Shown here: positions 40,565-43,315 of the stretch, in pieces
Layout: every line of letters starts with the position of its first letter
Position numbering within the stretch: the stretch's first letter is position 1
DNA from: Acidobacteriota bacterium
Lineage (GTDB): Bacteria; Acidobacteriota; Blastocatellia; Pyrinomonadales; Pyrinomonadaceae
Length of the DNA stretch: 53,706 nucleotides
Reading direction: 5' to 3'
Assembly: GCA_029557535.1 (NCBI GenBank)
Contig: JAKQII010000156.1
Coordinates: 1 to 53,706 of the forward strand
Translations under genes and position numbers: made by a program
The notes under the pieces: generated by a model
Seen by the model: only the letters and a program-made list of their open reading frames with translations
Told to the model about the DNA's origin: nothing
Databases searched by the model: none

Positions 40565-41911
40565 ATGAAGCAGTTATTCGGCACGGATGGAATGCGGGGA
40601 GAGGCCGGAACCTTTCCGCTCGATCGCGCGACGGTTGCGATCGTCGGCAGATCGTTGTCGCGGCAACTCGAGGAAGCGCTCGGGCGAAAGCCGAGATTCG
40701 TCACCGGCCGGGACACGCGCGAGTCCGGAACCTGGATCGAGGCGGCGATTCATGCAGGGATCCGGTCCGCAGGCGCTGAAGGCGAAACGGCCGGAGTCAT
40801 TACGACGCCGGGGGTCGCCTTTGTCACACGGGAGTTCGGTTTCGACGCCGGAATCGTCATCAGCGCTTCGCATAATCCATATTTTGACAACGGGATCAAG
40901 GTGTTCTCGCCGACCGGTAAGAAGATCGCATCCGAGATCGAACGGGCGATCGAGCGTGACGTTTTCGAGTCAACGCTTCCCGTCGAACTTCAGGACGCAA
41001 CGGCGACCGAAAGCGGCAATGCGACGCGATATTCCGAACGATATCTCGAACATCTTCTCGAGGGCTTTCCGGAACTTGCGCTCGATGGGTACCGGGTCGT
41101 TGTGGATTGCGCAAACGGGGCGGCGTTCGAACTTGCTCCCGAATTGTTCGGCCGGCTCGGAGCGGACGTCGTCGCGGTTTCTGACAAGCCAGACGGAAGG
41201 AACATAAACGAGGGGTGCGGTTCGCTTCATTTGGACGGCCTGCGTGATCGCGTACTCGAGGAAGACGCCGACATCGGGATCGCCTTCGACGGCGATGCCG
41301 ACCGGGCGCTTTTTGTCGACGAAAAGGGAAACGTCGTCGATGGCGACGCCGTCCTGTGGGTCATGGCCCGTCTGTTGGCCGACAATGGCGGTCTCGCGAA
41401 TCAAACCGTCGTGGCGACCGTCATGAGCAACCTCGGACTCGAAGTCGCGCTCAGCGCCCGAAACATCCGGCTTCTCCGCACGTCCGTCGGCGACAAGTAT
41501 GTCCTCGACGAACTTCTGAGAACGAATTCAGAGGTCGGCGGCGAGCAGTCGGGGCACATAATATTTCCTCAGCGCAGTCTTGTTGGTGACGGCATGATGA
41601 CCGCGCTGTTTGTACTCGAAGCGATCTTCGAAAACCAAAGGCCGCTCTCGGAGATCACTTCCGGATTCACCCGCTATCCGCAGATTCTTGTAAACGTTAA
41701 GGTTAGGGAAAAGCGGCCGTTCGACGAGGTGGCCGCGATCAGCGAGGCGGCAAAGACCGTCGAACGACAACTTGGAACGAACGGCCGGCTCTTGCTTCGT
41801 TATTCCGGAACGGAGAATCTCGCGCGCGTGATGATCGAAGGCGAGGATCAGGCTGTAATTGACGGCCATGCAAACCAACTTGCCGAGGTTATCCGCGCGA
41901 ATTTGGGCTGA
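40565..41911 (+). CDS. glmM: Phosphoglucosamine mutase
   Basis: A 448-residue enzyme converting glucosamine-6-phosphate to glucosamine-1-phosphate for UDP-GlcNAc. The N-terminus LFGTDGMRGEAG is diagnostic. The phosphoserine loop is SASHNP (Ser102), the Mg2+ loop AFDGDADR, the sugar loop GGEQSGH, and the phosphate-binding loop RYSGTENLARVM. Full length, all sites present. Confidence 0.95.
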   Translation: MKQLFGTDGMRGEAGTFPLDRATVAIVGRSLSRQLEEALGRKPRFVTGRDTRESGTWIEAAIHAGIRSAGAEGETAGVITTPGVAFVTREFGFDAGIVISASHNPYFDNGIKVFSPTGKKIASEIERAIERDVFESTLPVELQDATATESGNATRYSERYLEHLLEGFPELALDGYRVVVDCANGAAFELAPELFGRLGADVVAVSDKPDGRNINEGCGSLHLDGLRDRVLEEDADIGIAFDGDADRALFVDEKGNVVDGDAVLWVMARLLADNGGLANQTVVATVMSNLGLEVALSARNIRLLRTSVGDKYVLDELLRTNSEVGGEQSGHIIFPQRSLVGDGMMTALFVLEAIFENQRPLSEITSGFTRYPQILVNVKVREKRPFDEVAAISEAAKTVERQLGTNGRLLLRYSGTENLARVMIEGEDQAVIDGHANQLAEVIRANLG

Positions 41912-41924
41912 CGAGAAAATCGGC

Positions 41925-41953
41925 TTGCATGTGATGATGCCGGTTGATATGAT
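41925..41953 (+). promoter_or_regulatory. Promoter of a candidate small RNA / aroB leader
   Basis: TTGCAT (41925-41930), exactly 17 bases, TATGAT (41948-41953), placed 14 bases after the glmM stop codon. It predicts a transcript start near 41960. Confidence 0.6.
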
Positions 41954-41957
41954 TAAG

Positions 41958-42116
41958 GCAATTGAAACGGTTGGTGAATCCACCGTTTCCAGTGGTAGCT
42001 GGGGTGAGGACAGTTACTGCGAATTGGCAGGTGCGGTACACTTCCACGTTGCTTCGCCTGCTTTAATATCAAGAATCTGAGCCGCGAGGTTAAGGCCCCG
42101 CGGCTTTTGATTTTTT
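41958..42116 (+). ncRNA. Candidate structured small RNA or attenuator leader
   Basis: About 155 bases bounded by a good promoter and an intrinsic terminator, with no convincing coding frame. Foldable elements by eye: GAAACGGT...ACCGTTTC (41963-41988, an 8-pair stem extended by GG/CC around a TGAAT loop), TAGCTG...CAGTTA (41995-42016), a closing helix CAATT/AATTG, and GCAGG...CCTGC (42027-42061), then the terminator. I could not match it to 6S RNA, SRP RNA, tmRNA or any riboswitch consensus that I know. It could be an independent small RNA or a leader controlling aroB by attenuation. Confidence 0.5.
42080..42116 (+). terminator. Intrinsic terminator upstream of aroB
   Basis: AGCCGCG (42080-42086) pairs with CGCGGCT (42099-42105); GG/CC extends it past one mismatch, with a 6-base loop. 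It is followed by TTTT and, after GA, TTTTTT (42111-42116). It ends 26 bases before the aroB start. Confidence 0.82.
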
Positions 42117-42142
42117 GCGTTTCAGGTCGCAGAATCCCAATC

Positions 42143-43315
42143 ATGTTCGACGAAGTCGGGAAACTCGAATTGAAGTTGCCGGGAACAGATTCCGAATATG
42201 GGATCATCGCCGGTTCCGATCTGCTCGCGCGGCTTGGCGAATGGGCAGGCCACTGTCTCGGGAGGCCTGGCGGCAGGGTGATGGTCGTCTCAAACCCGCG
42301 TGTCTTCGGACTCTACGGCGAAGGCGCTGAGGAGTCGTTGCGGCGAGCGGGATTCGACGTTCACGTTTGGCTGATGCGAGACGGAGAGCGGTACAAGGAT
42401 CTGCGGTCCTATTCACGACTTTTGAGCCGGCTGGGAGAACTCACGTTCACGCGGACCGACGCAGTGGTCGCTTTGGGCGGCGGAGTCGTGGGCGACATTG
42501 CGGGTTTTGCGGCGGCGAGTTTTCTGCGGGGTATCCGCTTTTTACAGGTTCCGACCACGTTGCTCGCAATGATCGACTCTTCGGTTGGCGGAAAGACAGG
42601 GATAAACCTTGAGTCCGGAAAGAATCTGGTCGGGGCGTTTCATCAACCGGCCGGAGTGCTGATGGATGTTTCGACACTGCGGACGCTCCCGCGGCGCGAG
42701 GTCGTCGCCGGATATTGCGAGGCCGTAAAACACGCCGTCCTTTCCGGCGGGTCGCTTTTCGAGGAAACGCGATCGCATCTCTCGGTCGTCGATACCTCCC
42801 GTTTCAAGCGAGTATTCGAATCCCCGGATCTTATCGCCGATATTGCCGAATTTGTCTTGAAACAGGCGGCGTTCAAAGCGAGCGTTGTCATCGGTGACCA
42901 AACGGAGGACGTGTCGCGAACGGACTTTCGCTCGCGCAAAGTTCTGAATCTCGGCCATACACTTGCGCATTCGCTCGAAAAGGTTACGGCTTACCGATAC
43001 TTCCGCCACGGCGAGGCAGTCGGATGGGGATTGCGTTTCGCCGGCGAACTGTCAAAAAGTCTTGAATTAATCCACTCAGATGAACTAAACTTGTTAAACC
43101 ATGTTGTGCAGCTCGTAGGTGAGTTGCCCGACATAAGCAAACTCGACGCCGAATCGATCGTCCGGTCGTTCGCGTCAGACAAGAAGAACGTGACCGGAAA
43201 ACTCCAATGGGTCCTCTTGCAAGGGATCGGATCTCCGGTAATCGTCGCTAGTGATCAAATCCCGGAATTGTCCATTCGGGCCTGCCTCGACCAATTGATC
43301 AAGAGAACAAGTTAG
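42143..43315 (+). CDS. aroB: 3-dehydroquinate synthase
   Basis: A 390-residue NAD+/metal-dependent enzyme of the shikimate pathway. ALGGGVVGDIAGFAAASFLRGI (about residues 111-132) and QVPTTLLAMIDSSVGGKTGIN (about 135-155) are the diagnostic blocks. Metal ligands are expected in the Glu of EAVKHAVL, the His of GHTLAHSLE and the His of FRHGEAVGWG. The ATG at 42143 gives the usual N-terminus; the frame is open slightly upstream, into the terminator. A 138-residue protein gene follows after 27 bases. Confidence 0.95.
   Translation: MFDEVGKLELKLPGTDSEYGIIAGSDLLARLGEWAGHCLGRPGGRVMVVSNPRVFGLYGEGAEESLRRAGFDVHVWLMRDGERYKDLRSYSRLLSRLGELTFTRTDAVVALGGGVVGDIAGFAAASFLRGIRFLQVPTTLLAMIDSSVGGKTGINLESGKNLVGAFHQPAGVLMDVSTLRTLPRREVVAGYCEAVKHAVLSGGSLFEETRSHLSVVDTSRFKRVFESPDLIADIAEFVLKQAAFKASVVIGDQTEDVSRTDFRSRKVLNLGHTLAHSLEKVTAYRYFRHGEAVGWGLRFAGELSKSLELIHSDELNLLNHVVQLVGELPDISKLDAESIVRSFASDKKNVTGKLQWVLLQGIGSPVIVASDQIPELSIRACLDQLIKRTS

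Follow-up and report, generated by a model that had tools for sequence, protein, structure and literature searches.

What is encoded in the short interval between glmM and aroB in this genome of the Acidobacteriota? The window, i.e., the whole stretch of 53,706 nt that we analysed, comes from the Pyrinomonadaceae (class Blastocatellia), and the interval had been read in two ways in the initial annotation: as an independent small RNA, or as a leader whose terminator is controlled by folding and regulates aroB. Our analysis argues for the former. We propose, with a probability of about 0.8 and on the basis of sequence comparison, that this unit, hereafter RNA-I, belongs to a putative family of independent, trans-acting sibling small RNAs. 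Acidobacteriota are abundant in soil and, to our knowledge, little is known of riboregulation among them.

A predicted RNA gene behind glmM

The gene lies 13 nt behind glmM (Table 1). The initial annotation had described a promoter, about 155 nt rich in stems, a terminator and an aroB start codon 26 nt past the end of the terminator, and direct reading of the sequence recovered each of these elements in its place (aroB ATG at 42143). The terminator was also picked up by a terminator scan of the window. The promoter was missed by a simple sigma-70 scan, since no more than three of the six bases of TTGCAT match. Relatives carry TTGCCA or TTGCAA, a spacer of 17 or 18 nt and TATATT at the same position, and this conservation supports the promoter. 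In many relatives, hairpin 3 (HP3) serves as the terminator, with the T tract directly 3' of it in loci L013-L030, and hairpins equivalent to the additional terminator of the window are present in L003-L005, L007 and L008.

Table 1. Features of the RNA-I gene and of its neighbours in the window.
Feature	Position	Strand	Basis and remarks
glmM-type phosphoglucosamine mutase	40565..41911	+	ORF; Pfam PGM_PMM I-IV; conserved upstream neighbour of RNA-I
glmM stop codon TGA	41909-41911	+	direct reading
Sigma-70-type promoter TTGCAT-17-TATGAT	41925..41953	+	direct reading; positional match in relatives
-35 element TTGCAT	41925-41930	+	
-10 element TATGAT	41948-41953	+	spacer of 17 nt
RNA-I transcript, predicted	41960..42116	+	5' end inferred from the -10 position
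RNA-I hairpin 1 (HP1) GAAACGGTTGGTGAATCCACCGTTTC	41964..41989	+	fold; covariation
RNA-I hairpin 2 (HP2)	41992..42020	+	loop GGGUGAGGA at 42002-42010; module reused in other RNAs
RNA-I hairpin 3 (HP3)	42027..42061	+	C-rich loop CACUUCCACG at 42039-42048
Additional intrinsic terminator AGCCGCG...CGCGGCTTTTGATTTTTT	42080..42116	+	direct reading; terminator scan; GC-rich hairpin at ~42080-42105, then TTTTGATTTTTT (10 T in 12), end at 42116
aroB (3-dehydroquinate synthase)	42143..43315	+	Pfam DHQ_synthase; not counted as part of the RNA-I gene

RNA-I is a real structured RNA, with a structure far beyond chance. As a single sequence, positions 41955-42118 fold at -66.5 kcal/mol, against -49.6 ± 4.2 kcal/mol for shuffled versions (z = -4.05, none of 200 shuffles being as good). 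The alignment of 45 homologous copies folds into three hairpins: 96.7% of the pair cells are standard pairs, and 24 of the 28 pairs show double-sided changes, which amount to 126 against 33.9 in shuffles. A control in which the structure was slid gave only 38-56% pairing. The covariation of the stems among relatives, proposed earlier as a check, is thus borne out, with both controls clearly passed. HP1 has double-sided changes in five of its six modelled pairs (93% of cells paired) and HP3 in all eight outer pairs; HP3 and the joining segments also show length differences that are not divisible by three. In HP2, eight of the ten stem pairs covary and 100% of cells are paired. Although this stem covaries, the loop and its closing pairs read G-GGGTGAGGA-C in every one of the 45 copies. 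The stems had originally been described as four and nested; they are real, but the hairpins stand side by side.

Distribution and copy number

No Rfam 15 family, riboswitches, attenuators, 6S RNA, tmRNA and known small RNAs among them, reached its gathering threshold in the window or in ten relative loci, the best sub-threshold matches having E values of 1.2 and 2.5. A literature search, most subscription papers being outside its reach, found no earlier description of RNA-I or of its sibling RNA-II, presented below. By DNA search, the intergenic sequence was matched in 34 of 60 relatives, which represent 28 of 47 genera and belong without exception to the window's own family (f1), and the conserved part was mostly positions 41957-42061 of the window. 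The RNA stems, the terminator hairpins and the promoter position recur among relatives. A covariance model, which matches the window at 41953-42073 with 112.7 bits, identified RNA-I in 98 of the 162 genomes of the class, in family f1 and the sister families f2, f6 and f8, with 1 to 11 copies per genome; these copy numbers are approximate, the assemblies being fragmented metagenomes. Two public-record loci from Pyrinomonadaceae and Blastocatellia (L034, L036) also carry it. Outside the class, a broader model gave nothing convincing in 396 genomes sampled from the rest of the phylum, with one marginal match (E = 7e-4). RNA-I is therefore, as judged by these searches, a small-RNA family absent from Rfam and spread over one class, the Blastocatellia. 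Most genomes of genus g9 lack RNA-I, and hence it is not essential there.

Genomic context

In family f1 the constant neighbour of RNA-I is glmM, and aroB is a frequent but not a constant one. Among 30 relative loci, glmM lies upstream in 24 and aroB downstream in 17, and at least 11 loci, in each of which the sequence extends beyond 1 kb on the downstream side, have no aroB there. Outside f1, RNA-I adjoins various genes: a Ham1-family gene, aroB (two loci, L173 and L178 of another family), a gene without Pfam match and a DUF2270 gene, and one copy adjoins a transglycosylase gene on the opposite strand. Conversely, in four public-record loci (L031, L032, L033, L035) only a short spacer separates glmM from aroB; RNA-I is missing, and these loci represent natural deletions. 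The inconstancy of aroB and the variable neighbours indicate that the RNA-I gene is independent of aroB.

These data bear directly on the two readings offered originally. Control of aroB through the terminator, by a riboswitch or an attenuator, would account for the closeness of the terminator to aroB and for the loci, in f1 and beyond, where this gene comes next. We nevertheless consider it very unlikely, since RNA-I is not constantly placed ahead of the gene that it would control, most of the extra copies adjoin unrelated genes or face genes on the opposite strand, the glmM-aroB junction is kept without the RNA in four genomes, and the simple side-by-side hairpins revealed no conserved alternative pairing able to disrupt the terminator. 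Still less probable, to the point of being nearly negligible, is that the interval holds a short translated ORF or a fragment of the glmM 3' UTR instead of an RNA gene. The short distance to glmM and, in some species, a short frame readable through HP3 would fit this explanation, but the segments that vary by non-multiples of three do so with compensatory pair changes, RNA-I has promoters of its own, and there are copies far from glmM. The independent small RNA is the reading that stands, given its own promoter and terminator, its covarying structure, its dispersed copies with their own promoters and the lack of an Rfam match. RNA-I shows what is generally expected of an intergenic small RNA, i.e., its own promoter, its own terminator, no ORF and a conserved structure, and is almost certainly an independent RNA gene.

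A predicted shift from sigma-54 to sigma-70

We compared the DNA just upstream of RNA-I in 88 copies. A sigma-54 core was defined as TGGCAC-N5-TTGCW with at least 10 of 12 matches, so that these promoters are predictions by consensus matching. Such a core precedes 16 of the 17 copies of families f2, f6 and f8 (6/6, 7/8 and 3/3 in the three sister families), e.g., CTGGCACGTTCATTGCA in L176, and nearly all of these cores are at one offset from the conserved start of RNA-I; the chance rate at this threshold is about 0.4% of shuffled sequence. Most of the glmM-linked copies of f1 are hybrids that keep TGGCA-N6-TTGC, overlapped by a sigma-70 -10 element TATATT. The window's genus and near genera have the sigma-70 pair only, with no sigma-54 element left, and the RNA-I paralogues of f1 have sigma-70-like promoters. 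As read from these predicted elements, the promoter of RNA-I was converted from sigma-54 to a sigma-54/sigma-70 overlap and then to sigma-70. Loss of rpoN as the cause was ruled out, because this gene is nearly universal in the class (150 of 162 genomes, among them the window's); the change therefore sits in the promoter and was not forced by the loss of the factor.

A second RNA and a recurrent module

The HP2 module, with its loop GGGUGAGGA, recurs in further RNAs, including one in the window's own genome that we named RNA-II. It was found when 11 genomes were searched for the complement of the HP2 loop before ATG codons. An 8-nt seed site, TCCTCACCCCTCGTGACC, recurred in eight of these 11 genomes and was rejected as an mRNA target because it is the antisense strand of RNA-II; no other 8-nt seed site before ATG was recurrent among the 11 genomes. 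The exact 11-nt complement of the HP2 loop occurred only in the RNA-I gene itself and at two sporadic sites.

In the window's genome, RNA-II is at about 5118-5208 of contig C369 (2018-2108, + strand, of locus L304), with a promoter TTGCAA-16-TAAAAT. It has three hairpins with loops UCCCC, GGGUGAGGA and GUGUGGGAGA, which present CUCCCC in hairpin A and GUGGGAG in the third, hairpin C. Its structure is also supported by covariation (98.6% of cells paired; 101 double-sided changes versus 31.5), and it has no Rfam match. When weak matches are counted, RNA-II is found in 95 of the 162 genomes of the class, all those listed being from f1; the model is narrow, so that its non-detection in families f2, f6 and f8 is not proof of absence. 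A gene for an M10-type (matrixin) metalloprotease lies before RNA-II in all seven loci examined. In locus L307, RNA-II is closely followed by a c-di-AMP riboswitch (2214-2349; Rfam RF00379), and this in turn by a transporter-like ORF. Short two-hairpin RNAs share the GUGUGGGAG hairpin with RNA-II and occur in tandem in L340-L342 and L373, as two to three units spaced by ~75-90 nt. The arrays of L340 and L341 sit between an oxidoreductase-like and an HTH-like ORF.

In genus g10, the HP2 sequence is part of another, compact RNA architecture that has a TTGAC...TAGAAT promoter and a GGCCTTTCGGTTTTT terminator of its own (L148, L149, L151, L222-L231, L236, L238), and it also occurs as isolated hairpins. 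Around position 1477 of L234, T8 and AAGGAGAG...ATG come directly after the module, an arrangement that resembles a terminator within a 5' leader. Three loci of a single genome (G135; L232, L233, L235) contain a longer repeat-like RNA, GGCAACG...CGTTGCC..., with the module at its end. Whether HP2 is a docking site shared by these RNAs is, in our judgement, an evenly balanced matter.

Possible function and partners

RNA-I is probably a trans-acting regulator, and we propose the following mechanism. The fixed HP2 loop GGGUGAGGA would dock a factor, protein or target RNA, common to all RNAs with the module; one common partner is suggested because the invariant loop is kept in otherwise different RNAs. 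The C-rich loop of HP3 would base-pair with G-rich sequence, either in the Shine-Dalgarno regions of mRNAs or in the GUGGGAG loop of RNA-II. The siblings RNA-I and RNA-II might then compete for one partner, as GlmY and GlmZ do. Hfq is encoded in 59 of 60 genomes. CsrA (PF02599) is absent from the window's genome and was found in 5 of 60 relatives.

Two other explanations of the conserved loops have to be weighed. The GGUGAGGA hairpins might titrate an RNA-binding protein without base-pairing to mRNAs. A loop held fixed across several unrelated RNA architectures is what one expects of a protein-binding site, and no conserved mRNA complement was found, yet the obvious candidate, CsrA, is missing from the window's genome and from 55 of the 60 relatives, each RNA has a single such hairpin, and the C-rich loop of HP3 is conserved too. 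Such a sponge is thus on the unlikely side. Alternatively, RNA-I and RNA-II could form a small RNA/anti-small RNA pair that is mutually inactivated through kissing loops. Seven nucleotides of RNA-II, its GUGGGAG loop, are complementary to the HP3 loop CUCCCAC, with one G-U pair for the CUUCCAC of the window's genome, and the loop duplex is stronger in the genomes with RNA-II (-9.5 to -17.9 kcal/mol, with one genome at the lower bound of -9.5) than in the clade that yielded no match to RNA-II (-6.4 to -8.6 kcal/mol). However, shuffling the letters gives an equally good complementarity in 0.6-8% of cases, which makes it only moderately unlikely by chance, UCCCAC is kept in the sister families where RNA-II was not detected, and g9 keeps RNA-II, mostly without RNA-I. 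Co-evolution of the HP3 loop with the presence of RNA-II was rejected: on the glmM tree, the loop change and the absence of RNA-II are a single clade event (two changes each, two independent pairs), and for this reason we did not use the association as evidence. Given an energy difference confined to a single clade and the moderate chance level of the complementarity, we regard direct pairing of the two loops, and with it mutual inactivation, as doubtful.

The trans-acting sibling RNAs that we favour may be part of something wider. More tentatively, and with the odds rather against it, the Blastocatellia as a class might possess an RNA network in which RNA-I, RNA-II and further modular forms would show one fixed loop to a common partner, with cross-talk through C-rich and G-rich loops and with expression passed from sigma-54 to sigma-70.

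Comparison with known systems

CsrB and RsmZ are protein-sponge RNAs with many repeated sites. RNA-I resembles them by the GGA inside a hairpin loop, but has one such loop, not many, and its membership in the Csr/Rsm sponges was rejected because the partner protein CsrA is absent from the window's genome. Small RNAs with C-rich loops, such as the RsaE-type and cuckoo RNAs, target Shine-Dalgarno sequences. The exposed UCCCA/UUCCA loop of HP3 in RNA-I and the CUCCCC of hairpin A in RNA-II are similar; unlike these RNAs, ours carry G-rich loops as well, and the families are different.

Transcription of the Qrr RNAs is sigma-54-dependent and controlled by LuxO. In Vibrio, they have several dispersed copies per genome and an almost unchanging core (PMC4211561). 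RNA-I likewise occurs in dispersed copies with a fixed core, but this core is a 9-nt hairpin loop whereas that of Qrr is a 32-nt pairing segment, and the promoters in the window's genus and in the f1 paralogues are of the sigma-70 type. With no Rfam match, membership in Qrr was discarded.

The GlmY and GlmZ RNAs of Enterobacteriaceae, of which GlmY is a decoy for GlmZ, are homologous siblings with a shared structure, as RNA-I and RNA-II appear to be. The setting is also similar, i.e., amino sugars and the cell wall, RNA-I being located behind glmM. In contrast to GlmZ, which activates glmS by base-pairing in a system that includes RapZ binding, RNA-I is tied to glmM by position only; its hairpins and loops differ, it reaches 11 copies, and the GlmY/GlmZ family models of Rfam gave no match, so that membership was rejected. 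For GlmY, overlapping sigma-54 and sigma-70 promoters have been described (Reichenbach 2009, as cited in PMC4211561; PMC6075780). By consensus match, RNA-I has sigma-54 or overlapping sigma-54/sigma-70 promoters in the sister families and in most of f1, but not in the window's genus.

A multi-copy RNA with a near-invariant loop, together with a second RNA that has the same loop, raises a concrete question: what binds GGGUGAGGA? The natural losses of RNA-I and its promoter switches provide ready-made comparisons. By analogy, RNA-I would follow a logic like that of GlmY/GlmZ or Qrr while being a member of neither, and it would offer a concrete case of a small-RNA gene whose control passed from sigma-54 to sigma-70, a course also proposed for GlmY/GlmZ, in a distant group.
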